Below are positions 7,637-22,638 of a stretch of 40,689 nucleotides of DNA, piece by piece. This stretch comes from a virus, in IMG/VR virus record IMGVR_UViG_3300047355_000106, positions 1-40,689 of that record, one strand, 5' to 3'. Positions within the stretch are counted from its first letter, which is position 1. Every line of letters starts with the position of its first letter. The notes beneath the pieces were generated by a model that had not been told where the DNA came from, ran no database searches, and saw nothing but the letters and a program-made list of their open reading frames with translations. Position numbers and translations under genes: made by a program.

Positions 7637-7653
7637 TATTAATTCCTAATTAA

Positions 7654-9086: not shown

Positions 9087-9478
9087 GATTGTGTCACCCT
9101 TTGTCTTAGACCACTACTACTAAAAGAGTGTTGTCTGTTTGTATAATAAATTTCGTGTAGACCTTTACCTGTGAAATCTCTTTCAGTATAATCTTCTCCC
9201 ACGAATCTCAAATGTATCTCTGTTGACTCTAATAAGTCAATCAGACTTTGTTCAGTATCATATGGTATGATTTCATCAACATACTTTACTGCCTGCAATT
9301 GAACGAATCTCTCATAGACTGATTGAACAGGTTTGTTCTTTTCTTGTCTATCAATACTAGGGTCTGTTTGTAAACCCACGATTAAATATTCGCAATTTTC
9401 TTTTGCCTCTTTTAACATGACGATATGACCTGCATGTAGCAAGTCAAAACATCCGCATGTAAATCCTTTTGTCTTCAT
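9083..9478 (-). CDS. Cytidylyltransferase-like nucleotidyltransferase (TagD/RfaE-C type)
   Basis: A 131-residue HIGH-superfamily nucleotidyltransferase. The opening CGCFDLLHAGH carries the HxGH nucleotide-binding signature (His15, His18), and SSSGLRQRV near the C-terminus is the second motif. Members make CDP-glycerol, CDP-alcohols or ADP-heptose; the substrate cannot be fixed here. ATGA-type 4-bp overlaps on both sides link it to the DUF4338-like gene and the glycosyltransferase. Confidence 0.88.
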   Translation of the reverse strand: MKTKGFTCGCFDLLHAGHIVMLKEAKENCEYLIVGLQTDPSIDRQEKNKPVQSVYERFVQLQAVKYVDEIIPYDTEQSLIDLLESTEIHLRFVGEDYTERDFTGKGLHEIYYTNRQHSFSSSGLRQRVTQS

Positions 9479-10599
9479 CTTATAATATCTATGTTTTGAT
9501 TCTTAGACCAAACTTCTAGTTCATTTCTTAGTCTACCATCTCTCTGTAAATTTTCATATCGTTTTGTTGCCATCTTTTTCCACCATGTGATTACATTCTC
9601 TAATTCGAATCTATCAAAGTTTACATTCTTCTCTAAGGTATCTGTCTCTGAGTTCATGTACTCTTTAACATTCTTGTAACCATATGTGCCTAAGTATTGT
9701 CTCTTTCTTTCTGTAAGATTCTTTGCATCTACAAAACATTGTTTGAATGGTCTTAGCATTTCACTATCATTTTTCTCAAGTGAGTTTCTTATAATAGATA
9801 TCATCTTACCTTGTGTCTTCAACTTTCTACTTGATGCCTCTGCATCTACTAAAGGTACGCCATTGTTTTTATTCTCAAACCATTCTTTGAGATGATGATA
9901 TTTCTCATCATTGATACTTGGTACAAAGTCTGAATCAGTTAGACCAATGAATCTTAAATAAGGTTTCATGCCGTCATACATTGATGATGATTTACTTGAA
10001 CCATATAATGATGTAGTCTCAAACATACAATACTTTGTATTATACTTTTTGTTCAATGCTCTTCTGGCGTAATGCGAAGTGCAAATGGCGGCAAGAAGTT
10101 TACCACCTAGATAATTGAAACCAAAGGGTTGAGTTGGTATGATATTGAAACCCATGATTGTAGAATCATTGAATCTCTTCATCGTATCTTTGTCTGTCGT
10201 ATTTAGAGGTTTACCTAAGAACTCATTACGAGGTTTACTATTAATAGTAGGGCTGCCAAATCTAATAAATCCCACAATCTTATTCGTATTCTTTTCATAA
10301 ACTACCCACTTTAAAGTTTTGCCTGGTATAGACTTTTGTATCATTTGAGATGCAACTATGTCAATGTAATCATCATAGATTGGCATCTCTCTGCAAACAA
10401 ACTCCATATCATTTGGGTGCATAGTAAAGTCTTGAAACATATCATCTTCTGGTCCCATACCAAATAAAGATGCAGGTCTTTCTGCCATCTTTTCTAATTT
10501 GACTTTGCGAAGATAATCATCTATTCTATCGAAATTGGAATAGTAGTCAATAAAAATTTGACCTACATATTCAGCATCTTGTTTTGAAAGTATTAACAT
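9475..10599 (-). CDS. DUF4338/DruA-like protein (374 aa)
   Basis: The conserved core at about residues 110-240 runs through KIVGFIRFGSPT, MGFNIIPTQPFGFNYLGGKLLA, SHYARRALNKKYNT, FETTSLYGSSKSSSMYDGM and YLRFIGLT. The order (strand, ILP-like motif, helix with RR, Tyr-rich ETT loop, G-x-T) parallels the DUF4338 family (DruA of Druantia), but distantly. The fold may be GNAT-like; this is inference. It is a paralogue of the partial gene at the window start. Its own promoter lies 19 bp upstream, nested in a terminator hairpin. Function is unknown. Confidence 0.8.
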   Translation of the reverse strand: MLILSKQDAEYVGQIFIDYYSNFDRIDDYLRKVKLEKMAERPASLFGMGPEDDMFQDFTMHPNDMEFVCREMPIYDDYIDIVASQMIQKSIPGKTLKWVVYEKNTNKIVGFIRFGSPTINSKPRNEFLGKPLNTTDKDTMKRFNDSTIMGFNIIPTQPFGFNYLGGKLLAAICTSHYARRALNKKYNTKYCMFETTSLYGSSKSSSMYDGMKPYLRFIGLTDSDFVPSINDEKYHHLKEWFENKNNGVPLVDAEASSRKLKTQGKMISIIRNSLEKNDSEMLRPFKQCFVDAKNLTERKRQYLGTYGYKNVKEYMNSETDTLEKNVNFDRFELENVITWWKKMATKRYENLQRDGRLRNELEVWSKNQNIDIIR

Positions 10600-10601
10600 A
10601 A

Positions 10602-10638
10602 TAAAAAACCCAAGTCCATTATACGATGAACTTGGGTT
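10602..10638 (-). terminator. Intrinsic terminator after peroxiredoxin
   Basis: A 9-bp stem AACCCAAGT/ACTTGGGTT (minus strand) with a 14-nt loop, followed by six T on the minus strand. It lies 22 bp after the peroxiredoxin stop. The loop and descending arm contain the -10 box of the next promoter. Confidence 0.75.
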
Positions 10639-10646
10639 CCTGTCTA
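10618..10646 (-). promoter_or_regulatory. sigma70-like promoter inside the terminator
   Basis: Minus strand: -35 TAGACA (10641-10646), 17-bp spacer, -10 TATAAT (10618-10623). Predicted start is near 10611, in the descending arm of the hairpin, leaving a leader of about 12 nt before the ATG at 10599. A transcript started here cannot form the terminator stem. Confidence 0.7.
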
Positions 10647-10659
10647 GTGAGTTTTTGTG

Positions 10660-11217
10660 TTATGCTACAAAATCATCTTCTGGTTGCCATGAGCATCCAG
10701 TTAGACCACCTGCCTTAAGTGCCTGTAAGGTTCTTAAAACTTCGTCTGCATTTCTACCTGTATCTAGTGCATTTACTGATACATGTTGTACGACTCTTTG
10801 TTTATCAACAATGAAAGTTGCCCTATAACAGACTCCTTCTTCTTGGTTGATAATGCCCAAAGATTCTGAAAGATACAGACCACAGTCTGCAGCTAATGTA
10901 TGTTGAATGTTTCCAATCAACTCATTACTTTGTTTCCATGCAAGTTTACAAAACTCATTATCGCCAGATATACCTATCACATTTGCCTCACTTGTCAAAA
11001 TATCCATTGCAGAAATTTCGGTAGGACAAATAAATGTAAAGTCTTTAGGGTAGAAGTAAATTACTGACCAATCATGTTTATGTGGTGTATAACTCTCTTC
11101 TACTGAGACCGGTACAATCTCATTGTTAGAATTAACTCCTTGTAATTCAAAGGAAGGAAATTCATCTCCGACACAAAGCATGCCGTTGTTATAAGGGTAA
11201 GACATATCGTTCTCCAT
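10660..11217 (-). CDS. Peroxiredoxin (AhpC/TSA family)
   Basis: A 185-residue thiol peroxidase. The peroxidatic Cys64 lies in DFTFICPTE, with the conserved Arg132 in YRATFIVD. A C-terminal Cys175 in LTGCSWQPEDDF resembles the resolving-Cys tail (C-x-W) of AhpC proteins. It probably reduces H2O2 or organic peroxides during infection, using host reductants. It follows the tRNA-Gly by 8 bp and is presumably read through from the same promoter. The first in-frame Met (MENDM) lies just after the tRNA; Met5 is an alternative start. Confidence 0.93.
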   Translation of the reverse strand: MENDMSYPYNNGMLCVGDEFPSFELQGVNSNNEIVPVSVEESYTPHKHDWSVIYFYPKDFTFICPTEISAMDILTSEANVIGISGDNEFCKLAWKQSNELIGNIQHTLAADCGLYLSESLGIINQEEGVCYRATFIVDKQRVVQHVSVNALDTGRNADEVLRTLQALKAGGLTGCSWQPEDDFVA

Positions 11218-11225
11218 AATAAAGT

Positions 11226-11298
11226 TGGAGCGGAGTTCTAGAATTGCACTAGAATCTCTTAACTGGAAGTAAAGTGTTTTACTTTAAACTAACTCCGC
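11226..11298 (-). tRNA. tRNA-Gly(UCC), structurally unusual
   Basis: Read on the minus strand, a 73-nt cloverleaf fits. It has a perfect 7-bp acceptor stem GCGGAGT/ACTCCGC, U73 (a glycine identity base) and an encoded CCA. The D-stem is GTTT/AAAC with a 6-nt loop, and the T-stem TCTAG/CTAGA is perfect. The anticodon loop CTTCCAG gives UCC. Oddities: the D-loop (AAAGTA) has no GG, the T-loop is TGCAATT so G-T-psi-C becomes G-U-G-C, and the anticodon stem has one U-U mismatch. It sits about 9 bp after a promoter and just before peroxiredoxin. Confidence 0.75.
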
Positions 11299-11306
11299 AT
11301 GTATAC

Positions 11307-11335
11307 AGTATACTAAAAGACTGCATACTTTTCAA
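11307..11335 (-). promoter_or_regulatory. sigma70-like promoter for tRNA-Gly and peroxiredoxin
   Basis: Minus strand: -35 TTGAAA (11330-11335), 17-bp spacer, -10 TATACT (11307-11312). A run of five C precedes the -35, as at the hsp20 promoter. The predicted start is 1-3 nt before the tRNA 5' end. Confidence 0.75.
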
Positions 11336-11349
11336 GGGGGTTTTTAAAA

Positions 11350-11757
11350 TTATTTAATTTTAATTACTTGAGGTTTCTCTTCTTCTGGAATCTCTTTTAA
11401 GAGTGAGATGATGAGCATACCATCTTTAACTTCTGCACCCTTTACTTTTACATATTCACCAAGAGTCCAACTTCTTGCAAAGTTTCTCTCAGAAATACCT
11501 TTATGTGCAAAGTCAATCTCCCTAGTCTCTTTCTTACCATCGACTTTAAGAACTGAATCTTTAAACTCAATGAATAATTCATCTTTACTAAATCCTGCTA
11601 CTGCAAGTTCAATGATGTAAGACTCTTCAGAAGACTTGATTACATTGTAAGGTGGGAAGTTATCGTTAATATTCGAGATTCTCTCCATGTCTGAAAAGAG
11701 TTTATCGAATCCTATTGTGAATGGTCTGAACTGACCAAAGTTATCTATTGCTGTCAT
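11350..11757 (-). CDS. Small heat-shock protein (Hsp20/IbpA type)
   Basis: A 135-residue ATP-independent holdase. The alpha-crystallin domain covers about residues 35-130, with the IbpA-like stretch KGISERNFARSWTLGEYVKVKGAEVKDGMLII. A conserved I-x-I-like tail (VIKIK) closes the protein. Such genes are common in marine T4-like phages and are thought to protect assembly proteins. It has its own promoter and a leader of about 150 nt with strong secondary structure, discussed separately. Confidence 0.93.
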   Translation of the reverse strand: MTAIDNFGQFRPFTIGFDKLFSDMERISNINDNFPPYNVIKSSEESYIIELAVAGFSKDELFIEFKDSVLKVDGKKETREIDFAHKGISERNFARSWTLGEYVKVKGAEVKDGMLIISLLKEIPEEEKPQVIKIK

Positions 11758-11787
11758 ATTTTCTCCTATTTAAAGCAAGTTATGTTA
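11754..11787 (-). promoter_or_regulatory. ROSE-like RNA thermometer hairpin masking the hsp20 start
   Basis: In the mRNA, UUGCU (from 11774-11778) can pair with the Shine-Dalgarno AGGAG (11763-11767) across a 6-nt loop. A single G-G opposition falls in the middle, exactly the arrangement of ROSE thermometers. Next to it CAUA can pair with UAUG, covering the start codon. ROSE elements are known upstream of ibpA-type genes in proteobacteria. The assignment rests on this pattern and the gene identity. Confidence 0.5.
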
Positions 11788-11906
11788 CCTAACCTCTATT
11801 GAGCATTAGGGTAGCAGAGAACCGAGCTCTTTTGAAGACTTGGGGTCACTAGATGTCGGCGTTGCCCAATCCTAGTTCCAAATCCGAGCTCTTTTGAAGT
11901 TCTCGT
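11788..11906 (-). other. Structured 5' leader of hsp20 with a 16-bp direct repeat
   Basis: The 16-mer CCGAGCTCTTTTGAAG (plus strand) occurs at 11822-11837 and 11884-11899, 62 bp apart. GTTCTC/GAGAAC arms (11899-11904 and 11817-11822) can close a long stem around both copies, and the GAGCTC palindromes can pair with each other. No ORF with a ribosome site is visible. It is probably the upstream part of the hsp20 regulatory leader. Confidence 0.5.
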
Positions 11907-11912
11907 ACTACT

Positions 11913-11942
11913 ATTATATATGTCTTCTTACAGATTTTTCAA
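11913..11942 (-). promoter_or_regulatory. sigma70-like promoter for hsp20
   Basis: Minus strand: -35 TTGAAA (11937-11942), 18-bp spacer, -10 TATAAT (11913-11918). It is preceded by CCCC, as at the tRNA-Gly promoter. Predicted start is near 11906, giving a leader of about 150 nt. Confidence 0.7.
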
Positions 11943-11961
11943 GGGGTTTTTTAAAAAAAAC

Positions 11962-12072
11962 TTAATAAATGTCTCTGATTACATTCTGTAATCTTCCGCA
12001 TTTCATAAGGTTGTGTAGTTTGTCTGCTTGTGTCTTTAGATACTCGGCAGACAATGATGCATAATATCGCAT
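11962..12072 (-). CDS. Micro-protein with strong ribosome binding site (36 aa)
   Basis: ATG at 12072 is preceded by AGGAGATAACA, one of the best ribosome binding sites in the region. The product MRYYASLSAEYLK to VIRDIY is basic and helical with one Cys and no membrane span. It is not a recognised family. Upstream lie a late-type promoter, a hairpin and a sigma70-like promoter, so it has its own transcription signals. Confidence 0.6.
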   Translation of the reverse strand: MRYYASLSAEYLKTQADKLHNLMKCGRLQNVIRDIY

Positions 12073-12157
12073 TGTTATCTCCTGTTATGTTAGAAACTAT
12101 CTGACAACTGGACTTCGCTTTCGCTACTTACTCTTTGTGTCGTAATTGTTTCTGTTA

Positions 12158-12177
12158 TGTGACAATTGTGTGTCACA
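12158..12177 (-). promoter_or_regulatory. Inverted repeat after a late-type promoter
   Basis: TGTGACA and TGTCACA are separated by 6 bp. They lie immediately downstream of the late motif at 12176-12189, so they would form the 5'-terminal hairpin of the transcript or act as an operator. Confidence 0.5.
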
Positions 12178-12189
12178 ATAGTATTTAGT
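12176..12189 (-). promoter_or_regulatory. T4-type late promoter ACTAAATACTATTG
   Basis: This 14-base motif (minus strand) is identical to one at 39800-39813 after gp23. It resembles the single-box late promoter read by gp55-programmed RNA polymerase. Confidence 0.55.
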
Positions 12190-12190
12190 A

Positions 12191-12219
12191 ATTATACTAG
12201 CTAAAGGTTATATTTGCAA
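12191..12219 (-). promoter_or_regulatory. sigma70-like promoter, TTGCAA/17/TATAAT
   Basis: Minus strand: -35 TTGCAA (12214-12219), 17-bp spacer, -10 TATAAT (12191-12196) with extended TAG. It overlaps the end of the upstream 68-residue gene and would serve the 36-residue gene. Confidence 0.55.
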
Positions 12220-12403
12220 GACCCTTTATGTTTCTTCTGACCATTTCATTTTTAACCTTTTGTCTGAGTTTAGGTATAACTGGTTTGTTATACGCATCTA
12301 TCAACTCTGCATTAGATTTGCATTTCATATAGTCATGAACTATAGTTTTCTTTTTTGTATTTCTATCTATTTGTATAGAAGTTTTACCGAATTTCACTGG
12401 CAT
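12197..12403 (-). CDS. Conserved small basic phage protein (68 aa)
   Basis: Starts MPVKFGKTSIQIDR and continues with TKKKTIVHDYMKC and a helical C-terminus with KLRQKVKNEMVRRNIKGL. I recall similar small proteins in T4-like cyanophages, of unknown function. The start is preceded by AAGGAGATTATG; a second Met one codon upstream is possible. The late-like motif ACTAAATAA lies about 15 nt upstream, at the end of the PP-loop gene. Confidence 0.75.
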   Translation of the reverse strand: MPVKFGKTSIQIDRNTKKKTIVHDYMKCKSNAELIDAYNKPVIPKLRQKVKNEMVRRNIKGLANITFS

Positions 12404-12420
12404 CATAATCTCCTTTTTTA

Positions 12421-13113
12421 TTATTTAGTGACATTTAATAATTCAAATTCTTCGCATTTCATACATTTACCACAATTAGTAAAATGTATACAACTTTGAA
12501 CTAATGGTTTTATATCATCTCTTATATAATCCCATTGCTGTTTTTTTGTCCAACCTATTAGTGGTGCTGATATTGTTTGTTTGATTGGCCAATCAAAAGA
12601 ATGTTTATAACTTCCGTCATGATGTTTTGCATCTGCATCATGATATCCTTTTACTTTTTGGGGTATGTTCTGTAATGCCTCAAATACATTTTGAACCTGA
12701 TACTTTGTAGGGTCGACTATAGAACAGTCTCCTAATCCATCATTGAACTCTAACATACCACTATTTGCTCCCCAATAGAAATTTTTAACTTTTGAAAATC
12801 TCAATGATGCATTACACATTGCTAATAACCAATGTCTTGTAGAATAAAAAGAAGTTTCGACATCACGATATTTGGTATAATGTTCATGAGTATGTGTTAT
12901 AAAGTCAACATCAAGTAGTTTACATATTAGTTCTAAATGATTGGGAAGACGATTAGCTTGAATTGTTTTTTTTCTTGCAGGATAATGACTGTATATTGCA
13001 GCCACTTTTAATTTGTTATCACAAAGATATTGTAGAAGTGATGTAGATTCCACTCCGCCAGAAAATGCAACAACGGCATCTATTTCTGAAGTATTTTTAG
13101 AAAAGCGATTCAT
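12421..13113 (-). CDS. QueC-like PP-loop ATPase
   Basis: A 230-residue N-type ATP pyrophosphatase. The PP-loop SGGVEST is at residues 18-24, and the C-terminal zinc-type cluster has Cys208, Cys214, Cys217 and Cys220 (spacing CGKCMKC). Both features match QueC, which converts carboxydeazaguanine to preQ0. No QueD, QueE, FolE or DNA transglycosylase gene is in the window. It may feed deazaguanine modification together with genes elsewhere, or be an amidating or thiolating relative. It overlaps the dioxygenase gene by 17 bp. Confidence 0.82.
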   Translation of the reverse strand: MNRFSKNTSEIDAVVAFSGGVESTSLLQYLCDNKLKVAAIYSHYPARKKTIQANRLPNHLELICKLLDVDFITHTHEHYTKYRDVETSFYSTRHWLLAMCNASLRFSKVKNFYWGANSGMLEFNDGLGDCSIVDPTKYQVQNVFEALQNIPQKVKGYHDADAKHHDGSYKHSFDWPIKQTISAPLIGWTKKQQWDYIRDDIKPLVQSCIHFTNCGKCMKCEEFELLNVTK

Positions 13114-13735
13114 ATTTTCCCTTTTGTTTAGGTGTAGAAAGTGTAAAAACTATAGAATATCTTTTTGTATTTGTCTGCATAGGTTTAACCATATGTGTTA
13201 TATTATTGGGAAATAAAACCAATAAAGATTCTACTACACTTATACTTAAAACATCAGTATGAGAATTTTTATATGCAAAGTTTGGAGAAAAGAGAATTAA
13301 ATCTCCCTCGTCTTTACTATATCTACTTTTCATGAAATTATCTTTTTCTACTAGACCCTTTGGAAAATATACAGCAGTCATTTTGGTAGAAACCGAACCC
13401 CTTATTTCGTTTTTTTTACTGTTATGAGTATGTGGAAAAGAAAATCCACCAGCTCCATGTATAAGATTAGCCCAACAGGCTGATACTTGCATCTCTTCTT
13501 CTAGGAGTAAATCGTCTATCTGACGAGTTAAAGCTCTAAAACTATGATAAGTATGTTGCATCTTAGTGTTCGATTGCCAAGTGTTATTGGGTGTAGAAGC
13601 AAAACTTCGTGTGTCACCATCTGGCGCAAGGAGTTTTTCTTGTTCAATTTCATCAATCAAGTTTTTGTTTAACTCAGTGTTATCTGGAAATTTATGACTC
13701 AGAAAAGGAGTGTAAAATATTTTATCTAAATGCAT
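13097..13735 (-). CDS. 2OG-Fe(II) dioxygenase-like protein
   Basis: A 212-residue double-stranded beta-helix protein. The iron site appears as HTHN (His102, His104), with a distal His181 in NNITHMVKP and Arg192 in KRYSIVF for 2-oxoglutarate. This HxH form is typical of the phage/marine subfamily of putative 2OG oxygenases, not of HxD prolyl hydroxylases. The substrate is unknown. It overlaps neighbours on both sides, in the accessory chain between a beta-propeller and a PP-loop ATPase. Confidence 0.72.
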   Translation of the reverse strand: MHLDKIFYTPFLSHKFPDNTELNKNLIDEIEQEKLLAPDGDTRSFASTPNNTWQSNTKMQHTYHSFRALTRQIDDLLLEEEMQVSACWANLIHGAGGFSFPHTHNSKKNEIRGSVSTKMTAVYFPKGLVEKDNFMKSRYSKDEGDLILFSPNFAYKNSHTDVLSISVVESLLVLFPNNITHMVKPMQTNTKRYSIVFTLSTPKQKGKYESLF

Positions 13736-14493
13736 TTTATATCTGTAATTCTATCTAGGTGTTCTATATTTATTTGATTATCAAATACTCTATTTTCTAT
13801 ATCAAAAACAAAAACAGACGCAACATCTCCTTCGTTATTGCCAACTAAAAGTTTTCCATTTCTTTTTGCTAAACCTCTACAGAAACCCTTATTAATGAAA
13901 TATCTATCGTCATCAATGACTAGTTCATAGGCACCTGTATCAATAGTATAGAAATGTTCATCAACAATTATGTTATGACATTTTCTTCCTAATTCCTTTA
14001 TCTTAGTATCTCCTCTATAAAACTCAGATGGTTTTAGATTTCTATTGTGAAATACATAGTATAACTCATCTTTAAAAAATAGACTGTTGCAATGAGATTT
14101 TTTAGGAAGAACTTTAAAGAATGAACTGCCGTCATCTAAATTATGTATACCAATTGAGTTTTCGTGTGTATTCGCAACATACATGATATTGTCTTTCTTT
14201 AATATTTGATGCGTGTTAAAAAAACTAGTAATAGGTAATAGACCTTTGAATGTGTAATCATTGATATCGTAGATACCTATTTTAGTATGATTTGCAATGT
14301 AAATATTATCTTCATCATAAGTTATGCCAAAGGGTCTAAAGGTTGGTCTGGTGTTTTTGCCTGATTTCATTCCTTCAACTGACAAGTCATCTAATTCAGG
14401 AGTGTAGGGTTTGACCAATTGTAGTTCAAAATTATCATTGTATACAAGAAAAGATACTCTGTTATCTTTTTTTGTACCAGTTATTATTATCAT
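13726..14493 (-). CDS. Beta-propeller protein (NHL/DUF4915-like)
   Basis: About 255 residues of repeated blades: RPFGITYDEDNIYIANHTKIGIYD, NIMYVANTHENSIGIHN, DELYYVFHNR, NGKLLVGNNEGDVASVFVFD. Repeats such as these build a ring-shaped beta-propeller, usually used for binding. There is no signal peptide with the chosen start. The start MIIITGT at 14493 has a good ribosome site (GGAAGAAG) and overlaps the upstream stop as ATGA; an upstream Met at 14526 is less likely. Function is unknown; it may recognise a ligand for the neighbouring dioxygenase. Confidence 0.72.
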   Translation of the reverse strand: MIIITGTKKDNRVSFLVYNDNFELQLVKPYTPELDDLSVEGMKSGKNTRPTFRPFGITYDEDNIYIANHTKIGIYDINDYTFKGLLPITSFFNTHQILKKDNIMYVANTHENSIGIHNLDDGSSFFKVLPKKSHCNSLFFKDELYYVFHNRNLKPSEFYRGDTKIKELGRKCHNIIVDEHFYTIDTGAYELVIDDDRYFINKGFCRGLAKRNGKLLVGNNEGDVASVFVFDIENRVFDNQINIEHLDRITDIKCI

Positions 14494-15083
14494 CTTCTTC
14501 CACAGTTTTTTTCTGCTCTGTGCCATACATTGTAGTTGTTGCCTACAACTAATGCCATTAAAAGATTTATATTATTCATAGTTTTTGGTTCTAGAGTCTG
14601 TCGTTCTATATCAGAATTGATTGCAGGTATGAGAACAAGTGTTTTAACAAGAAACATTTGTGGTACTGATGGTTGTTCACCAACAATTGGATTTATTTCA
14701 TAAACACAATTGTATTTAAGTCCACGATAAGTTGTATAGATATCTGCAAGTTGTAGTGTGGTAAATGTAATCCACTGCTTAGTTGTGATTGGGTCAGATA
14801 GTGTAAATTGTGACTTGTTCTGATTTTCCTTTAACTGTAATTCTATCAACTCTAGTGAATGCTCTGTCTGGACATAGTTGATAAGTTCTTTCTGATAACA
14901 ACAAGTCCACCCCATTATAATTTCTTGTTTGGCCTTCGAGTCTAGCGCCCAAGTTGACGGCATCTCCGATGACGGAATAGTCAAATCTAAGTTCGGAACC
15001 CATGTTTCCGACAATACATTCGCCTGAACTGATACCGATGCCCACATTAATAGGAGGCAGGTTAAGAGGTTTAAGTTCTTCAT
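14490..15083 (-). CDS. Exported protein whose start lies inside the cyclase gene
   Basis: The 197-residue frame begins with a credible signal peptide, MKNLNLLTCLLLMWASVSVQA then N, and has a strong ribosome site (AAGGA, 6 nt). Its first 96 codons overlap the 3' end of the adenylate cyclase in another frame. The conserved part (about 103-195) has TTLQLADIYTTYRGL, CVYEINPIVGEQPS and LVKTLVLIPA, resembling small membrane proteins of the DUF5658 sort. An internal start at Met57 is the main alternative and would lose the signal peptide. It ends in ATGA overlap with the propeller gene. Confidence 0.6.
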   Translation of the reverse strand: MKNLNLLTCLLLMWASVSVQANVLSETWVPNLDLTIPSSEMPSTWALDSKAKQEIIMGWTCCYQKELINYVQTEHSLELIELQLKENQNKSQFTLSDPITTKQWITFTTLQLADIYTTYRGLKYNCVYEINPIVGEQPSVPQMFLVKTLVLIPAINSDIERQTLEPKTMNNINLLMALVVGNNYNVWHRAEKNCGRR

Positions 15084-16632
15084 TTAATTCCTTTGTTGCA
15101 TCTAGGACTTCTAGTGCTGATTTTACGGCAAGGTCTGCGTGGTTTTCACAATCAAGTGGTGCATTCCAAAAACTCATTATGCAATCCCCCATATACTTAT
15201 CTATGGTTCCACTATTATTTAGTATGATTTTAGTTTGCATATCTAAAAACTTATTAATGAGTTCTACTAAACCTTCTGGATCATCTTTCTGCATATAGTG
15301 TTCGCTTATGGGAGTGAATCCGATTATGTCCATAAACATGAAAGTCATCTCTCTTCTATCTCCGCCAAGTCTAAGTTTACTTGGGTCTTTTTGTAGTTCT
15401 TCAATCATGTCAGGAGATAAATACTTTTGGAACTGCTTCTTAATTTGTTCTTTGAGTTGGTAAGTAGTATAGTATTGGTTAAAAGAAGCGTGTCCGAAAA
15501 CAACAACGGAGCTTAACGATGACCAGAAGATATCGAAAAGAACGAGATTGTAAAACCACAAATAGTGACTTAACCCCACCTGAAGTAAAACGAACCCTAC
15601 AGAGACTATCGCCGAGAAGGCTGTGGGAAGTTTGTAGACCGATACCAGTATTCCTAGAAGGACTAACAGAAGAAGAAAAGTCTCGAGCATTTCAAGAGTC
15701 TCGGATACATGTATTTGAACTCCTGACGAAACGGTTTGGATTAGGTGTGCTTGAACTTCGTGAGGATACATTACACCCATTGGGGTTGAAACTGGAATAG
15801 ATAACCCCTCAGCGGTTAGTCCATAGACTAGAATCTTTCCTTCTATATCAGAATCTTGCAAGTCTGCAAATGAGATAGATTCGAATTCGTTCCAATACGA
15901 AATCATCAAGTCTGCACTTGATGTGGTCTCTATTGGTTTGTCTCTTCCCATTTTAACCCATTCAATACCTGCATCAGCAGTTACCCTAGTTTGATAATTG
16001 GGTTGGTCATAGTATGCTCTGAGAACTTCGAATCCTAAACTTGGATATAATTGACCATTTGCCTGGATGACTAGCGGAATCGCTCTGTTTGTTCCGTCAA
16101 AATTTGGTGTATTCGCCACAGGTGGTGTGGCAACTGTCACGCCCATACCCCAAGCTGAGTTTTGTAATTCGGTTCGGGGACTTACTAAACCTGAAAAGTT
16201 CCATACATGGTCTTGTATATTACCATCTCCGAATACAGATGTATTTACAAATGGTGCGTTGCCTGATTCTTTTTGAATTGTTGGTGCTGATGATAATATC
16301 GTTAATCTGTTTTCTAGTGCCTCTGCAAAGACTTCATCACCACCGAATCTATCTTCTTCTGCGAATAGTATATTGAATACATGAGTATTTGAGTGATGTG
16401 TTTCCCATAATGTATCTGCGTATATGTCTCTAGGGAAAGGATATTGACCGTACTTCTCTATTGCCTTTTCATCTATGTTGACCAGTAGTATGTCATCTAC
16501 TATCACTTTTTCTTTTTGTTGATGTAGAACATCGAAGTAAGACCATCTAACATTATCTATTAGATAAGGCGACCATATCTTTATGCCCACGAGTGCAATG
16601 ATGGTTATAAGTACAGTTTTCCAATTATACAT
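14794..16632 (-). CDS. Membrane class III adenylate cyclase with CHASE2 sensor
   Basis: A 612-residue receptor cyclase that makes cAMP from ATP. The order is: membrane span near 5-25, periplasmic CHASE2 domain about 30-310 (LLVNIDEKAIEKYGQYPFPR is typical), two to three spans at 317-380, a linker, and a cyclase domain 425-612. Metal-binding Asp435 (FMDIIGFT) and Asp483 (YMGD), base-contacting Lys479, and transition-state Asn560 and Arg564 (VNLGARLEG) are present. The second base-specifying position is Ser553, where related enzymes have Thr. The enzyme therefore looks active. It ends the curli-like chain and overlaps the next gene by 290 bp. Confidence 0.93.
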   Translation of the reverse strand: MYNWKTVLITIIALVGIKIWSPYLIDNVRWSYFDVLHQQKEKVIVDDILLVNIDEKAIEKYGQYPFPRDIYADTLWETHHSNTHVFNILFAEEDRFGGDEVFAEALENRLTILSSAPTIQKESGNAPFVNTSVFGDGNIQDHVWNFSGLVSPRTELQNSAWGMGVTVATPPVANTPNFDGTNRAIPLVIQANGQLYPSLGFEVLRAYYDQPNYQTRVTADAGIEWVKMGRDKPIETTSSADLMISYWNEFESISFADLQDSDIEGKILVYGLTAEGLSIPVSTPMGVMYPHEVQAHLIQTVSSGVQIHVSETLEMLETFLLLLVLLGILVSVYKLPTAFSAIVSVGFVLLQVGLSHYLWFYNLVLFDIFWSSLSSVVVFGHASFNQYYTTYQLKEQIKKQFQKYLSPDMIEELQKDPSKLRLGGDRREMTFMFMDIIGFTPISEHYMQKDDPEGLVELINKFLDMQTKIILNNSGTIDKYMGDCIMSFWNAPLDCENHADLAVKSALEVLDATKELNEELKPLNLPPINVGIGISSGECIVGNMGSELRFDYSVIGDAVNLGARLEGQTRNYNGVDLLLSERTYQLCPDRAFTRVDRITVKGKSEQVTIYTI

Positions 16633-16698
16633 AGATATCTATCAGGTTACCCTTTTTCCATTCGAGTAGTCGATATCTCCTGTATCTGTTTTGTGGCA

Positions 16699-16878
16699 CT
16701 ATTCAATTGTGGGCCACGCAAAAAAGAATATGTATAGACAAACACCAATGAGTGATATTGCAAGAACTGTTGACCAGAAACTTGACCACCATTGTTGTTT
16801 TTTCTTTCTACGATATTCGTTAACCATTGCGATGGTCCTTTCTCGTGCATCTTTTGAAAATGGATTCGCTTCATTCAT
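16699..16878 (-). CDS. Small membrane protein (59 aa)
   Basis: Starts MNEANPFSKDARERT with an ATGA overlap to the upstream micro-gene. A basic stretch RRKKKQQWW precedes one span (VLAISLIGVCLYIFFFAW). This frame is preferred over the alternative frame starting at 16874 (MKRIHF), which has no membrane helix and lacks coupling. It is unrecognised and directly upstream of the cyclase. Confidence 0.65.
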   Translation of the reverse strand: MNEANPFSKDARERTIAMVNEYRRKKKQQWWSSFWSTVLAISLIGVCLYIFFFAWPTIE

Positions 16879-16976
16879 AATATTAAACCGATAATAAAAC
16901 CTATGTTTAGTCCTAAAGAACAGACTAAGATAAAGTCTTTTTTAAAAGAATACGGTATCATGTCGATTGTGTTCAT
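16875..16976 (-). CDS. Membrane micro-protein (33 aa)
   Basis: MNTIDMIPYSFKKD followed by a hydrophobic helix FILVCSLGLNIGFIIGLIL up to the stop. ATGA overlaps on both sides tie it to its neighbours. There is no family; it is supported by coupling and membrane character. Confidence 0.55.
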   Translation of the reverse strand: MNTIDMIPYSFKKDFILVCSLGLNIGFIIGLIL

Positions 16977-17230
16977 GAGAATTTCTTCTGTATTCGTTTA
17001 TAGATATAGTATATAGACAGTCCATAAGTAGCGAGAACAGTCATTGTAAAACCTATGTAAATAAGTTCTATTGGTGTTAGGAAGAGAACTTGCCAAACGA
17101 AATCAGATGCAGCTTCTACATCACCCAAAGATTCAGGCATGACCATATCGTTCTCTTCAAAGAGTTCTAATATGTCGTCATACTCTTCTTCAGTGAGACA
17201 CTCGTAAAACTCAGGTGGACATTCACTCAT
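16973..17230 (-). CDS. Small acidic membrane protein (85 aa)
   Basis: An acidic N-terminal half with two Cys (SECPPEFYECLTEEEYDD), then one span at about 50-75 (LTPIELIYIGFTMTVLATYGLSIYYIY) and a basic tail KRIQKK. The charge distribution suggests the acidic part outside and the tail inside. It is coupled by a 4-bp overlap to the second curlin-like gene. Function is unknown, perhaps an accessory of the export system. Confidence 0.7.
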   Translation of the reverse strand: MSECPPEFYECLTEEEYDDILELFEENDMVMPESLGDVEAASDFVWQVLFLTPIELIYIGFTMTVLATYGLSIYYIYKRIQKKFS

Positions 17231-17997
17231 TGTTGGGTCACCGATGTACTACAACCACCGACTGTCATGCAATCGACTGATATAGTATAAGACTGAGTAC
17301 CACTAGTACCAAATTGTAATAATGTTAAGTCTGTTCCATATAAACCATCAAGAGTTATATTTGCAGTGTGATTTGCACTAGTTCCTTTCTGACGGACATA
17401 CACATCGTTATAATCATTGTAGATTGTTAAGTTTGTAGTTTTTACACCATTGCCTTGTTGTTTGATTTGAACTTCGTTATGGTCACCTGCTAAATGCAAA
17501 TCAAAGTTATGACCATCCCATGCATTATGTTGATTTGTTTGTTGAACTGCTAATTTGTTATAGTCGCCATACATTGTAATGTCTATCTCGTGTCCGCCAC
17601 CTTCACTACCATCATGACTCCAATCTAAATTTGTTTCGGAGTCTAGTGAATCCCAAGTAATGCCTTGACCAAGTTTCATTTTGTTACCAGTACCACTGAC
17701 CTCATCAAATACAATTGAGTTGGGATAAGTATAACTTGATGATGTATTGTGTATGTTGTATTGAACCATATACACACCTAGACTAGAAGCATTAATATAT
17801 GAATTAGCATCTAACATTTTAATTTCATTATCGAAACCAATTTGTTCTATACCTAGTTCAAAATTATCTCCGCTTTGTTCAATAGATATAACATTGTCAT
17901 CAGCGTATACAGGAAATACCATGAGATAACAAGCACCCCATGGTAGTATCCAGTATTTGTAAAATTTATTTTTTAATTTGTTTAAAAAATCCACCAT
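17227..17997 (-). CDS. Curlin-like exported repeat protein B
   Basis: From the ATG at 17997 (AGGA upstream), 256 residues with a signal peptide ending FPVYA. The mature part begins DDNVISIEQSGDNFELGIEQIGFDN, the I-x-x-Q-x-G-x-x-N pattern of curlin repeats. Degenerate repeats continue (NKLAVQQTNQHN, NEVQIKQQGNG, DVYVRQKGTSAN). The C-terminus has a Cys pair in DCMTVGGCST, like the other curlin-like protein here. It is probably a self-assembling amyloid subunit exported through the CsgG pore. Its start shares 16 bp with the small gene before it. Confidence 0.78.
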   Translation of the reverse strand: MVDFLNKLKNKFYKYWILPWGACYLMVFPVYADDNVISIEQSGDNFELGIEQIGFDNEIKMLDANSYINASSLGVYMVQYNIHNTSSSYTYPNSIVFDEVSGTGNKMKLGQGITWDSLDSETNLDWSHDGSEGGGHEIDITMYGDYNKLAVQQTNQHNAWDGHNFDLHLAGDHNEVQIKQQGNGVKTTNLTIYNDYNDVYVRQKGTSANHTANITLDGLYGTDLTLLQFGTSGTQSYTISVDCMTVGGCSTSVTQQ

Positions 17998-18137
17998 AAT
18001 AATAATCCTAAAATTAATCCCTCGGTGTATGACACCCATAACATTTCATATTCATCTAAACCAAAATAGTCGGCAACTTCCCATGTTAGGTTTTCATGCC
18101 ATTGTCTTAGTTTAGTAAAGTCAATATTTATGCTCAT
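17982..18137 (-). CDS. Small membrane protein (51 aa)
   Basis: ATG at 18137 with a strong site AAGGAGAGATTT. It starts MSINIDFTKLRQWHENL and ends in a tail-anchor-like helix ENGLILGLLLWWIF-type segment (YTEGLILGLLLWWIF). It lies between the FecR-like and second curlin-like genes. Unrecognised; possibly an inner-membrane partner of the export system. Confidence 0.65.
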   Translation of the reverse strand: MSINIDFTKLRQWHENLTWEVADYFGLDEYEMLWVSYTEGLILGLLLWWIF

Positions 18138-18147
18138 AAATCTCTCC

Positions 18148-19299
18148 TTAATCTTGTCGTATAACAATTGTAATTCCATCTCCATCTCCAAATGTCATGA
18201 CACCTGAGTATCCTGGAACTTCGGCATCTATAATACCCGAACCACCACTTGTTATAATTATATTTATGACTCCTTGGACATCACGAAAGAAAACTAAGTC
18301 TCCGTCTTGTTCGAAAACATTAAACTGAGAATCTTTGTTGAAACCTTGTGAGGCACCTTTAAGTGCAAACCCAGCTAATTCAGTACCCGAACTACTTTTG
18401 GAACCTAACGATACCGTGGTTCTCTCTAATTCTTCTATAACATCTAATAAGTCTTGTAAAAAATCCACATCCAAATAATCTATGTCCAACTCTGAAAATG
18501 ATAAATCTTCAGTCGTATCGGCCAAAGCATCTCCCTCAAGTTCATTGAACTCTAAGAAGTCTACATCTAATAGACCTTGGTCATCATAGTTTTCATCTTG
18601 ATAGGATTCTTCCATCGCATTTCGTATTTCCGAAGGCGGATTTACGATGAACATGTTGTCAATCAGACTCGGTGTAATACCTTGAACCGTGACTGCTGTA
18701 GTTGGTGATGAATCAAACGATGCAACAGTAGTTGCCTGATATGGTTGATTTAAAACAACTTCACCACCGTCATTATAAACTAGTATTTCTCCAGATGATT
18801 CACCTGTATCTTCATCCGGAAGTAAGATTACCATAGTCCTTCCCAACTCATCAATGGTGGTTGTAAAATCTGTCCCTCTCATTGTGATATTGGCTGTAGG
18901 AGTAGATACATCTACATTTTGTTTTTTAATTCTTGAACCACCACCCGAGGCGAATCGTGCTGTGCCTCGTGCCATTCGTATTGACATTTTGGATAAACTT
19001 GGGTCGGGGTCGTAATATGCCTCGTCTATGTAAACGAGTGAGTTTTCTGTTAAACTCAATTTTTCATTATCTAAAAATTGTATGAGCATACGCCCATTGG
19101 CAGTCTCTGCTTCATCATACATGTTGATGTCTGTACCGACATCTGTTAGAATTCTGTCCTGCTCTCTTTTTACAGATGTGACACCTGTAGATTCAATTAC
19201 ACCGCCAATGGGCTCAGCCCAGCTGAACCCACCAGCGAATAATAAAAAGAAACTAACTATCGCTGCCGGAATCTTTTTGTGTAATCTGAATAATCGCAT
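18148..19299 (-). CDS. FecR-domain exported protein
   Basis: 383 residues with a signal peptide (KKIPAAIVSFFLLFAGGFSWA, then EPIGG). The FecR domain spans about 30-200, with NGRMLIQFLDNEKLSL, RMARGTARFASGG and the hallmark DVSTPTANITMRGTDFTT. The C-terminal half is acidic and unrelated to known motifs. Periplasmic FecR proteins act as signal relays or envelope sensors and often neighbour CHASE2 cyclases in bacteria (from memory). A GTG two codons upstream is an alternative start. It overlaps the first curlin-like gene by 47 bp. Confidence 0.85.
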   Translation of the reverse strand: MRLFRLHKKIPAAIVSFFLLFAGGFSWAEPIGGVIESTGVTSVKREQDRILTDVGTDINMYDEAETANGRMLIQFLDNEKLSLTENSLVYIDEAYYDPDPSLSKMSIRMARGTARFASGGGSRIKKQNVDVSTPTANITMRGTDFTTTIDELGRTMVILLPDEDTGESSGEILVYNDGGEVVLNQPYQATTVASFDSSPTTAVTVQGITPSLIDNMFIVNPPSEIRNAMEESYQDENYDDQGLLDVDFLEFNELEGDALADTTEDLSFSELDIDYLDVDFLQDLLDVIEELERTTVSLGSKSSSGTELAGFALKGASQGFNKDSQFNVFEQDGDLVFFRDVQGVINIIITSGGSGIIDAEVPGYSGVMTFGDGDGITIVIRQD

Positions 19300-19987
19300 T
19301 GTCACTGTTTACATTAAGATTGACATTTGCATTAGGTGTTGCACACCCTCCGCCAGAAGCTGCACATGTGCCTGATATCTGAGTGATATCAACATCAGCA
19401 CTGTCTCCTGTAAAATCAAAATTAAGTGTTTGTGAACCATCTTTTTGCAATGTATTGAAATTAGAACTAGAACCAGTCACATCGAAATTCCATGTGACAT
19501 CATCTGATTCCCAATCAATATCAAAAACATTACTACTTCCAATGAGAACTAAATCCGCATTTAATCTCTCTGCACTTGCAACAGCACCTTGGTCGATATC
19601 GAATGTATTCGAATCGCCTGTCATTGCGAAATTGATGTCTGAATCATCTGAACTACCTGTAGAACCTATGTTCCAGTCAATAGCGTTAGAATCACCAGTC
19701 ATCGATATAGCGTAGTTCGATGTATCGGCAACGAGAGGTCCGAATAACAAGTTCTTGTTACCTATCATATCTATGTTGAAATCCAAAGTCACACCAGTAA
19801 TGGTCATGTTTGAACCAGAACCACTTGAAAAGTCGTTTAGTCCTACTTTGTTACCAAAACCAACTTGGTCAACATATAATTTTAGAGTATCACCAACTTG
19901 TGTTATCATAATCTCATTATCATCAGTTGCAGCTGCGAAAACGAATGGTGTCGACATTAGTAATAAAATACTTAAAATTTTATTCAT
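19253..19987 (-). CDS. Curlin-like exported repeat protein A
   Basis: 244 residues with signal peptide MNKILSILLLMSTPFVFA. The mature part starts with DDNEIMITQVGDTLKLYVDQVGFGN, parallel to curlin-like protein B. About eight Gly-Asp-Ser/Asn repeats follow, such as AISMTGDSNAIDWN, INFAMTGDSNTFDID and ADLVLIGSSNVFDID. A C-terminal Cys pair is in TCAASGGGCAT, then ITQ. It is very acidic and lacks aromatic gatekeepers. It is probably an amyloid-like subunit for CsgG/CsgF, whose genes lie immediately upstream. Confidence 0.78.
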   Translation of the reverse strand: MNKILSILLLMSTPFVFAAATDDNEIMITQVGDTLKLYVDQVGFGNKVGLNDFSSGSGSNMTITGVTLDFNIDMIGNKNLLFGPLVADTSNYAISMTGDSNAIDWNIGSTGSSDDSDINFAMTGDSNTFDIDQGAVASAERLNADLVLIGSSNVFDIDWESDDVTWNFDVTGSSSNFNTLQKDGSQTLNFDFTGDSADVDITQISGTCAASGGGCATPNANVNLNVNSDNAIIQITQKDSGSDS

Positions 19988-20945
19988 TTTCTTCTCCTTT
20001 TATTGAGTGTAAATCATTTACACCATCACTATTGTGTGGGTGTCTATGACCTTCCTCTATTTTCCAAAAACCCCTATCATGCCCTTGGTAGATTAATTCC
20101 AGTACGGCAGCCTCAATAGCTGTTCGTACCGCATATGTCACTGACTCATTATTACCCACTCCGTCCTCGAACTCTAGCAATTGTGTACCTTCTTCAATGA
20201 ATCGGAATACATCGCCGCCTGAACCATAAGAAAGGATAGTCTTTCTTGTTTGGACATTCAATAATACTTCACCTGTTAGAACTGAAACAGCTCTCATACT
20301 AACCGTGACAGCATCTTGACGATACTGTCTACTAACTCCAATTCCTAGTGTCCTTGCGCCTCGACCACCAGTTAATAAATTGGAATCATAACCTATTATA
20401 CCACCCTCTATTATCATACCTGCGAATAGTAAGGGTTGTAAATTTTGAAACTTGTCTTCGCCTTGTTGTTTAGCAAAGTCTTGTCTAGCAGAACGAATGA
20501 TTTGTCTCTCTCTTACTAAGTTGTCTATGCCATGTCTTTCAACAACTCTAAACCATGTTCCTTTACCTGCCGTTTTAAGTGCATCAATAACCATTTCGGT
20601 TGCACCTTGTGTCACAGCAGTAGAAAATGATGCGAGATTATCTTCTGCCTTTCTTTGACCAGTCTTATCTATAAAATTATAAACTGCAACAGTAGGTCTT
20701 TCTTTTGCCTTAGGCAAATTCAGTAGTTCTAAATGTGAAGGTAGATTAATTACAGTAGCATTTTCTACACATATGTAATTTCTAGACCATGCCTTTGCGA
20801 CACCTGTGACAACATCTCTGCCGAAACCCTCATCAAATCTTCCTGTCTCATAGGCACAATCTGCTGGGTTGTCTGACCACTTTGGAACAGATGCACATCC
20901 AGATAGTAAAAGTACGCAGGTGAGTAAATATTTAACCAGTTCCAT
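19980..20945 (-). CDS. csgG: CsgG-family outer-membrane secretion pore
   Basis: A 321-residue lipoprotein from the ATG at 20945; the lipobox is LLSGC (Cys17). It matches CsgG along its core: TVAVYNFIDKTGQ, ASFSTAVTQGATEMVIDALK, FRVVERHGIDNLVRERQIIRSA, EGGIIGYDSNLLTGGRGARTLGIG, TRKTILSY and VFRFIEEG. Nine copies of CsgG form the ungated curli export channel. There is an extra Cys-containing segment of about 45 residues before the core and a His-rich tail. Upstream in-frame Mets would hide the signal peptide, so they are rejected. Known from pelagimyophages, as far as I recall. Confidence 0.95.
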   Translation of the reverse strand: MELVKYLLTCVLLLSGCASVPKWSDNPADCAYETGRFDEGFGRDVVTGVAKAWSRNYICVENATVINLPSHLELLNLPKAKERPTVAVYNFIDKTGQRKAEDNLASFSTAVTQGATEMVIDALKTAGKGTWFRVVERHGIDNLVRERQIIRSARQDFAKQQGEDKFQNLQPLLFAGMIIEGGIIGYDSNLLTGGRGARTLGIGVSRQYRQDAVTVSMRAVSVLTGEVLLNVQTRKTILSYGSGGDVFRFIEEGTQLLEFEDGVGNNESVTYAVRTAIEAAVLELIYQGHDRGFWKIEEGHRHPHNSDGVNDLHSIKGEENE

Positions 20946-21420
20946 CTGAGTCTTGTCCAAAGTTTCCTGTTCCGATTGGTATCTCAATAACTGTTTCTGT
21001 TCCATCGGAATCAACAATTGTCATTCGTATAAATTCTGAACCATCTTCGTTAGTCATTACTTCATATGTGACAACATTGCCCTCTAAACTAAATGAACCA
21101 AATCTAACTGAACCGTCATTCGAAAACATAGACTCAACCAATTGTTTTGCCATTTGAGCATAAATTCGTGATTCTAAATTACGAATAAATTTGGCCATGG
21201 TTGTATTGTCTTCTGCCCTTTCAGCTGCCTTTCTAGCAGATTCAAGTGCATCTTCTATTTCTTTTTTTCTTGTAAACTCTTGGTTCTCAACGGTTAGGTA
21301 ATGTGATGCTGTGCCTATTCCACTGAAACTAGGGTTTTTAAATTTATGTTTTATATCAGCCTGTACGCTTTCGCTAATACAGAATACTGAAACTAAGAAT
21401 ATGATTTGTAATAATTTCAT
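20932..21420 (-). CDS. csgF: CsgF-like curli assembly factor
   Basis: 162 residues with signal peptide ending SVQA. The mature N-terminus DIKHKFKNPSFSGIG matches the CsgF FxNPxFGG peptide that plugs into the CsgG channel. The C-terminal domain has VEIPIG-type beta structure as in CsgF. It is longer in the middle, with a charged helical linker (EIEDALESARKAAERAED). It overlaps csgG by 14 bp. CsgE was not found in the window. Confidence 0.88.
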   Translation of the reverse strand: MKLLQIIFLVSVFCISESVQADIKHKFKNPSFSGIGTASHYLTVENQEFTRKKEIEDALESARKAAERAEDNTTMAKFIRNLESRIYAQMAKQLVESMFSNDGSVRFGSFSLEGNVVTYEVMTNEDGSEFIRMTIVDSDGTETVIEIPIGTGNFGQDSDGTG

Positions 21421-21674
21421 TTCTTTTTCACCTCTTCCTTTTTGGCATTCTCTTTCATCTCTAAAACTACATCTACTTTTTGTTGTAGTCTTATTAAGTC
21501 TTGGTCTAACATTCTTGTTTGGTCTATTACTTTAATTAATTGAAAGTGCATTTTTTCAATTTCGGGTTCTAGTTTTTCACCTACAAACCACCAAATGTAA
21601 TATATGAAATAACCGAGTCCTACTGCCATCACAATGGGAAATCCGAAATCGGAGATTAATTGTGCAATGTCCAT
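21417..21674 (-). CDS. Small membrane protein with coiled coil, possible holin
   Basis: 85 residues: one N-terminal span (FGFPIVMAVGLGYFIYYIWWFVG), then a coiled coil (KVIDQTRMLDQDLIRLQQKVDVV) and a Lys-rich end. The pattern resembles UviB/BhlA-type holins or signal anchors. It overlaps csgF by 4 bp and the next gene by 1 bp. It may permeabilise or act with the CsgG pore. Confidence 0.65.
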   Translation of the reverse strand: MDIAQLISDFGFPIVMAVGLGYFIYYIWWFVGEKLEPEIEKMHFQLIKVIDQTRMLDQDLIRLQQKVDVVLEMKENAKKEEVKKK

Positions 21675-21970
21675 CAGTCTCTCCTGACATCGAGCTTATC
21701 ATCTTCTATGAAGTTTTCAGCTCTCGCAATTCTCTCTATGTCTGGTCTCAACTCTAAAGCACTTGATACAAGTAAATCTATCTTAATCATTTCGTTAGAC
21801 ATTGTTCTTGCTCGATTTTCTAAAGATTTACAGAACATTGTAAGTGTGGAAATAGAATCAACTACACCCTCAAGTATCTGTTTAATAACTATGAATATAA
21901 AGAACCCCATTACTACTGAACCAGCAATCGGAGCACCCACTTCACCTATTAGATTAAAAATCTCTTCCAT
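21674..21970 (-). CDS. Membrane protein with helical cytoplasmic tail (98 aa)
   Basis: One span near 14-35 (APIAGSVVMGFFIFIVIKQILEGVV), then helical segments. Its organisation parallels the next gene. Its start is preceded by ATAAATA exactly 5 nt upstream, so it may begin the late transcript of the whole curli-like chain. It is probably a holin-like or export-accessory protein. Family not recognised. Confidence 0.7.
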   Translation of the reverse strand: MEEIFNLIGEVGAPIAGSVVMGFFIFIVIKQILEGVVDSISTLTMFCKSLENRARTMSNEMIKIDLLVSSALELRPDIERIARAENFIEDDKLDVRRD

Positions 21971-21975
21971 ACTGT

Positions 21976-21982
21976 TATTTAT
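21976..21982 (-). promoter_or_regulatory. Late promoter ATAAATA heading the curli-like operon
   Basis: TATAAATA on the minus strand is the exact T4 late consensus. It is separated by 5 nt from the ATG at 21970, so transcription would begin at or next to the start codon. Confidence 0.6.
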
Positions 21983-22005
21983 ACAAATTGTCTTTTCCTA
22001 AGGGC

Positions 22006-22035
22006 TAAAAAAAAGGGACTCTAACGAGTCCCTTT
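22006..22035 (-). terminator. Intrinsic terminator
   Basis: A 10-bp stem AAAGGGACTC/GAGTCCCTTT with a GTTA loop (minus strand), then eight T. It ends the transcript of the 109-residue membrane protein and isolates the curli-like chain. Confidence 0.9.
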
Positions 22036-22057: not shown

Positions 22058-22387
22058 TTATTCTTCTTCGGTATCATCACCATCAGAATCATTATTATTT
22101 TTCAGTTGCGAGTGTATTTCGGTAATTACAGCTGCTTTCGAACCACTTCTTTTTACTTTCAGTGATTTTTTATCAGCAAGTTCTAATAGTTGAACTTTAG
22201 TTAATGTCTTAAGTTCAGCCTTAGATGTAATACCGTTATTGTTTTTATCTGCAACAACTTTTGGTTTCACTACTCTTGGTTTTCTAACCGGAGGTGGAGC
22301 CACCGTTGTTGTAGTTGTTTCGTTATCTCTATTGAAATAAGCGTAAACAATAACAAATAACACTACAATTGCAATTGCGTATTCCAT
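22058..22387 (-). CDS. Membrane-anchored protein with HeH/SAP-like helices
   Basis: 109 residues: one N-terminal span (3-18), a Thr/Pro/Lys-rich linker, then a helix-extended-helix at 56-95 (SKAELKTLTKVQLLELADKKSL..SKAAVITEIHSQL) and an acidic tail. Such helices bind nucleic acid in HeH/SAP proteins. It could tether phage DNA or RNA to the membrane. It is monocistronic, with its own promoter (TAGACA/17/TATACT), a ribosome site GGAGTATATT and a terminator. Confidence 0.72.
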   Translation of the reverse strand: MEYAIAIVVLFVIVYAYFNRDNETTTTTVAPPPVRKPRVVKPKVVADKNNNGITSKAELKTLTKVQLLELADKKSLKVKRSGSKAAVITEIHSQLKNNNDSDGDDTEEE

Positions 22388-22464: not shown

Positions 22465-22638
22465 TTAGTCCTTTGCTTTACCAACATTTAATGCGACCCA
22501 ATCAAGTACTTTGTAAGCTTTCTTGACTATGCCATCATCAACTGGTGTAGGTGTAAGAGCTGCAATTAATGATGCACCCATTACTAACCAGGGTAACACT
22601 TGTACCCAAGCAATTATCCATTGAAGAAATTCCAACAT
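22465..22638 (-). CDS. Small membrane protein, candidate holin (57 aa)
   Basis: MLEFLQWIIAWVQVLPWLVMGASLIAAL is hydrophobic, followed by TPTPVDDGIVKKAYKVLDWVALNVGKAKD. The combination of a short span, a TPT-DD turn and an amphipathic helix resembles small phage holins I remember. A ribosome site ACAGGAG lies 8 nt before the ATG. Upstream is a late-type promoter with a 5' hairpin, which fits a lysis gene. Confidence 0.7.
   Translation of the reverse strand: MLEFLQWIIAWVQVLPWLVMGASLIAALTPTPVDDGIVKKAYKVLDWVALNVGKAKD

Follow-up and report, generated by a model that had tools for sequence, protein, structure and literature searches.

What would a bacteriophage gain from a curli export system encoded next to an exported FecR-domain protein and a CHASE2 adenylate cyclase? 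Pelagiphage curli genes have been a puzzle since 2020, and the roles put forward for them include aggregation, superinfection exclusion, uptake and lysis. We analysed such a gene module in the IMG/VR virus record IMGVR_UViG_3300047355_000106 (40,689 bases; 'the window' denotes this whole stretch), which is coding almost wholly on the minus strand and contains T4-type genes for the Gp23 capsid protein, a gp44-type clamp loader, DNA polymerase, a gp46-like subunit and a helicase. Tentatively, and with a confidence that falls a little short of probable, we read the locus as a late-expressed type VIII (curli) export module for surface amyloid, in which FecR and CHASE2 would serve as a state sensor.

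A preliminary description of this DNA had taken the joining of these genes to be novel. However, a type VIII secretion system (T8SS) module with FecR and cyclase has already been published (Wittmers et al. 2022, PMC9599517) and is carried by the cultured phages HTVC008M and Melnitz. That study described CsgF, CsgG, CsgA/B, FecR, adenylate cyclase and 'HK' in podo- and myophages together with metatranscriptome evidence for module expression, and csgF/csgG had been reported before (Zaragoza-Solas et al. 2020, PMC7029224). The two functions suggested in the preliminary description, a surface amyloid that blocks superinfection and a pore that assists lysis, are likewise both present in the earlier literature.

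Gene content and conservation of the module

The gene inventory drawn up beforehand (CsgF, CsgG, two curlin-like proteins, FecR, small membrane proteins and a cyclase) was recovered in full on the minus strand. They run in the order TmA, TmB, CsgF, CsgG, CurA, FecR, a small membrane open reading frame (ORF), CurB, two more small membrane ORFs and the CHASE2 cyclase, with start/stop overlaps joining most of the genes. The eight principal genes are:

21674-21970, minus strand: TmA, 98 aa, single transmembrane segment, conserved KxDxRxD tail (phrog_18771, E 2.6e-24)
21417-21674, minus strand: TmB, 85 aa, TmA paralogue (phrog_18771, E 8.6e-25)
20932-21420, minus strand: CsgF (Pfam CsgF, E 1.6e-13)
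19980-20945, minus strand: CsgG outer-membrane lipoprotein pore (Pfam, E 1.7e-54; PDB CsgG, E 4e-49)
19253-19987, minus strand: CurA, exported curlin-like protein (Curlin_rpt, E 7.9e-4, 19.8 bits, just below the cut-off of 20.7)
18148-19305, minus strand: exported FecR-domain protein (Pfam FecR, E 1.3e-9); a further beta domain lies at its C-terminus, and it closes with a CsgB-like motif
17227-18039, minus strand: CurB, second exported curlin-like protein (Curlin_rpt, E 1.2e-4, 22.4 bits, above the curated cut-off of 20.7)
14794-16632, minus strand: CHASE2 class III adenylate cyclase (Pfam CHASE2, E 2.5e-29; cyclase, E 3e-18)

CsgG possesses the lipobox LLLSGC, with its real start at about 20945; CurB ends in a Cys pair, and its true start probably lies nearer 17997. 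CsgG and CsgF homologues, curlin-like cargo and a CsgB-like C-terminus are shared with the E. coli csgDEFG/csgBAC system; in contrast, CsgD, CsgE and CsgC were not found (CsgE having no match among the module proteins scanned), and FecR and the cyclase are extra.

We constructed profiles from the window, HTVC008M and Melnitz and used them to scan IMG/VR loci with CsgG, the cyclase or TmA as anchor. Each scan comprised the 80 best matches for its query; since some contigs are shared between them, the sets are not independent samples. The eight-gene order was found in HTVC008M (record positions 6900-13807), in Melnitz (50118-56876) and in nearly every related IMG/VR contig. FecR accompanied csgG in 86/86 viral loci with enough flank and the cyclase did so in 45/45, so the association is not due to chance. 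As the preliminary description had supposed, the genes make up a single conserved unit. It begins at a promoter-like site. Since the genes form such a unit in relatives, the objection that related phages might carry them scattered and independently does not arise.

Exceptions are few in kind. One phage locus (L105) has CurB and the cyclase without FecR or CsgG, and its Tm pair, encoded on the opposite strand, is next to a TonB_C-domain gene (8860-9516, E 4.9e-14); this could be taken to favour a co-travel of genes without joint function. We find that explanation scarcely credible: divergent phages preserve both the set of genes and their order, five module genes also occur together in a bacterium (see below), and the conservation counts largely refute it. 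In L296, L297, L318 and L390 the Tm pair lies on the opposite strand, while L300-L308 and similar loci have no Tm genes, several possessing an 89-aa membrane ORF before csgF. Ten bacteria-binned contigs (L165-L170, L172, L173, L180 and L181) were rejected as bacterial operons and taken as phage-type modules because of their phage-like profile scores and, in most, a Tm pair. No podophage curli locus with podophage marker genes was recovered; phage 023Pt_psg01 (MW574966), tried as a podophage source, gave no match in a CsgG search and has no curli gene among the annotated genes in the 45 kb shown.

The order CsgF-CsgG-curlin-FecR-curlin-cyclase is the same in the window and its relatives as in the published module. 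The latter, however, has one or two histidine kinases before csgF (stated for podophages, PMC9599517), whereas the window has TmA and TmB at that position. At 85-98 aa these are too short to be kinases; neither gave a kinase match or a Pfam match over a cut-off. CsgF and CsgG were present in all 61 TmA loci with enough flank; among viral csgG loci with room upstream, TmA and TmB were found together in 112/120, either strand being counted. TmA and TmB thus appear to be near-obligatory partners of the module, which would be an addition to its published description.

The right edge of the module is the late promoter at 21976-21983. The left edge had been placed at 14490, on an ORF (14490-15083) that overlaps the cyclase by about 290 nt; this is instead a separate downstream gene, since its DUF5658-like part (below the Pfam cut-off) is confined to the stretch past the cyclase stop. 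The listed start is probably spurious, and only the part past that stop looks real. An Rfam scan of the window returned nothing but tRNA.

Curlin-like cargo and probable late timing

Both curlin-like genes are retained with the pore. CurA was present in 62/62 loci of the first set, and CurB in 38/38 CsgG-anchored and 42/49 cyclase-anchored loci. A cargo role is favoured because two such genes, kept with csgF/csgG, would be superfluous for a bare pore. CurA, CurB and FecR moreover end in a strand of the [IV]x[IV]xQ type resembling the E. coli CsgB end IRVTQR (255/268, 161/216 and 241/253 rows, respectively), which is nearly absent from CsgF (2/309), CsgG (2/352), the cyclase (3/226) and TmA (0/257); these rows include repeated contigs and some bacterial loci, and therefore count sequences, not independent events. 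When the FecR ends were shuffled, the motif occurred 26 times against 241 observed. A CsgB-like C-terminal motif common to all three proteins seems not to form part of the published description.

The start of the module is marked by two elements:

22007-22032, minus strand: intrinsic terminator GGGACTC-GTTA-GAGTCCC-TTTTTTTT, which ends the upstream unit
21976-21983, minus strand: T4-type late promoter TATAAATA, shortly after the terminator, with 13 nt separating it from the TmA start codon

The terminator was read directly from the sequence; a consensus terminator scan did not list it, probably as extra pairing takes up some of the T run. The promoter motif ATAAATA is found in the last 120 nt ahead of TmA in 130 of the 188 different upstream stretches, where mononucleotide shuffles give 11.9, and 90 of the 130 occurrences fall in one 5-nt position bin. 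In HTVC008M the late motif lies 10-30 nt before 7/27 late and 0/23 early/middle genes (Fisher p 0.009; we assigned the classes by annotated product); csgF has it 13 nt upstream. The late promoter reported for T4-like cyanophages is NATAAATA (PMC2984593); over the whole window it has 13 matches against 16 expected and, with no excess in that count, the late-promoter signal is visible only by position relative to gene starts. A near-consensus variant, CTAAATAGTAATATG, stands upstream of both the adenylate cyclase gene and the tail completion gene of HTVC008M. A T4-type late promoter heading the module would be new relative to the published accounts.

Late timing would also suit a role in lysis (Buchholz et al. 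2022, PMC9004378), in which CsgG, CsgF and the small membrane proteins would together constitute a gated pore, or a system akin to pinholins, that sets the moment of lysis. The several small membrane ORFs within the unit, weak matches of TmA/TmB to a holin PHROG (E 0.001-0.002; TmA, E 0.0017) and an observed lack of clumping agree with this. However, it leaves two conserved curlin-like cargo genes, FecR and a catalytically intact cyclase unexplained, and the TmA/TmB pair is bound to csgF/csgG (61/61), unlike a general holin. CsgG is, furthermore, an outer-membrane pore and would not by itself depolarise the inner membrane. We consider a lysis aid rather unlikely.

A second alternative holds that CsgG without a CsgE gate admits macromolecules or iron complexes to the starved cell, as raised by Zaragoza-Solas et al. 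2020 (PMC7029224) and Wittmers et al. 2022 (PMC9599517). CsgE was indeed not found, and the constriction loop of the phage CsgG differs from that of E. coli and is not conserved; nevertheless, late timing, conserved curlin cargo and CsgF fit poorly with nutrient uptake, and we regard this as very unlikely.

Between FecR and CurB, and between CurB and the cyclase, lie three further small membrane proteins:

17982-18191, minus strand: small membrane ORF (listed start codon provisional), tblastn matches in 59 viral loci, lowest 31% identity
16973-17230, minus strand: small membrane protein, 85 aa, tblastn matches in 50 viral loci, 31 of them <90% identity
16699-16878, minus strand: small membrane protein, 59 aa, tblastn matches in 34 viral loci, 21 of them <90% identity

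FecR, the cyclase and its possible output

The AlphaFold2 model of FecR shows two confident beta domains (34-194 and 308-385) with a low-confidence linker between them. The FecR domain, but not the system, is shared with the FecR anti-sigma regulator of ferric citrate transport; unlike that regulator, the phage protein has no N-terminal cytoplasmic anti-sigma domain with a partner sigma factor, beginning with a signal-peptide-like helix, and only its FecR domain matches. The best Foldseek match was the PupR signalling domain (E 5.3e-4). Another, at 1.2 A over 65 columns, was 5ix9, an antifreeze-protein domain annotated as anchoring to the cell surface; it is also the top, weak sequence match of the FecR profile over positions 25-96 (E 0.058). 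Anchoring domains of the MpAFP type plug a TolC-type pore. FecR might accordingly act as a retention plug at the CsgG pore, like the N-terminal domain of the repeats-in-toxin (RTX) adhesin MpAFP, while its C-terminal strand, carrying the CsgB-like motif, nucleates curlin and the cyclase merely reads envelope stress. That the best fold match is a periplasmic signalling domain, and that bacterial FecR-CHASE2 pairs occur at loci without curli genes, speaks against such an anchor, which we judge distinctly unlikely as a whole.

The pairing of FecR with CHASE2 is an ordinary bacterial one. Among some 33 alphaproteobacterial loci, about 11 have FecR next to a CHASE2 cyclase with no curli genes, and in a biofilm operon of Burkholderia the neighbour of FecR is a CHASE2 kinase (PMC5192318). 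These operons share with the phage module an exported FecR-domain protein beside a CHASE2 sensor, but they signal through a histidine kinase, or through a cyclase that has no curli genes nearby.

The catalytic residues claimed for the cyclase are all present in the window: D435, K479, D483, D557, N560 and R564 comprise the two metal-binding Asp, the ATP-specificity Lys and Asp, and the transition-state Asn and Arg. All six are intact in 183/193 phage cyclase rows, a count of sequences that includes repeated contigs. In a near-identical relative of the window (contig 3300017730_000001; L006 and L084) the first metal Asp is changed to Tyr, which may be a sequencing error in a single contig.

Conserved cargo, the shared end motif, intact catalytic residues, the late promoter and the bacterial FecR-CHASE2 pairing together support the curli export model. 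CsgG with CsgF would form a pore in the outer membrane through which CurA and CurB leave the cell late in infection, and this export of curlin-like cargo appears to be the best-supported part. The exported proteins would assemble into amyloid fibres on the infected cell or its debris, with a possible benefit to the phage. Periplasmic FecR may link the state of the export line to the CHASE2 cyclase, perhaps by its CsgB-like C-terminal strand; the cyclase would synthesise cyclic AMP (cAMP); and TmA and TmB would be inner-membrane partners that phages retain with the module.

Several observations weigh against this model. Melnitz-infected cells showed no clumping (Buchholz et al. 2022, PMC9004378). 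The module lacks CsgE and CsgC; the absence of CsgE was likewise reported by Wittmers et al. 2022 (PMC9599517), and CsgE helps but is not essential for curli (PMC7029224). Structure prediction, proposed beforehand for the curlin-like proteins, gave an all-beta model for CurA (predicted local distance difference test 83.7, predicted template modelling score 0.77), but no significant PDB fold match. Profile comparison gave no support to the C-terminal domain of FecR as a degenerate curlin, so that its curlin likeness is limited to the last few residues. In the Melnitz-like cyclase set, the transition-state Asn is replaced by Ser.

The suggested cAMP response to an envelope signal is doubtful if the host is a SAR11 bacterium. 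No cyclic nucleotide-binding (cNMP-binding) domain was found in the window or in any of seven large phage records. It is also missing from 95 of 99 genomes (completeness not given), and present in 4/99, in the family of a Candidatus Pelagibacter metagenome-assembled genome (MAG), a family taken here to be SAR11. Since most of these genomes lack the domain, a cAMP-to-Crp output has no obvious receptor in SAR11, and this simplest route is unlikely. Class III cyclase matches occurred in 3/99 of them, two over the cut-off. The scarcity of both cyclase and receptor domain in this family appears to be a further addition to the published description.

A bacterial sister operon and implications

A single scan of genome contigs revealed a chromosomal csgF-csgG-curlin-FecR-CHASE2 cyclase operon on one strand in the Hyphomonas sp. 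TMED17 MAG (L171, 9489-15512), within a 705-kb contig bearing metabolic and TonB-receptor genes. It shares the five-gene order of the phage module, but TmA and TmB are missing, there is just one curlin-like protein (504 aa), and the FecR has no CsgB-like end motif. In a cyclase tree, for which sampling was not neutral because L171 served as the query for collecting the bacterial cyclases, L171 is sister to all 22 phage representatives (Shimodaira-Hasegawa-like approximate likelihood ratio test: phages 99, phages with L171 100). The CsgG tree also groups phages with L171 (98), whose position inside is weakly resolved: the free tree places it among the phages with weak support, while a tree keeping the phages together has the higher likelihood (approximately unbiased test, p 0.63). 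FecR of this type is rare, occurring in 1/105 genomes of the family of Hyphomonas TMED17 at E 1e-20. The operon is an addition to what was known, and contrasts with the statement that FecR and the cyclase are not part of bacterial T8SS operons (Wittmers et al. 2022, PMC9599517).

Just upstream of the phage module, two small proteins (22058-22387 and 22465-22638) each have tblastn matches in 94 viral loci, mostly at <90% identity, the latter matching phrog_9685. Downstream, 12421-13735 encodes a QueC-like PP-loop protein and a weak match to 2-oxoglutarate-Fe(II) oxygenases, both nearly limited to close relatives of the window.

The late promoter narrows when the module acts, TmA and TmB are fresh candidates for functional study, and the Hyphomonas operon offers a bacterial system in which the link between FecR, cyclase and curli can be studied. 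A further proposal, which we hold to be doubtful, is that the phage imports a whole second messenger late in infection, with an amyloid export line sensed by FecR/CHASE2 and cAMP made in SAR11-type cells, most of which possess neither a class III cyclase nor a receptor of the Crp type. If true, the imported cAMP would act on an unknown target, either intracellular or in other cells after release.

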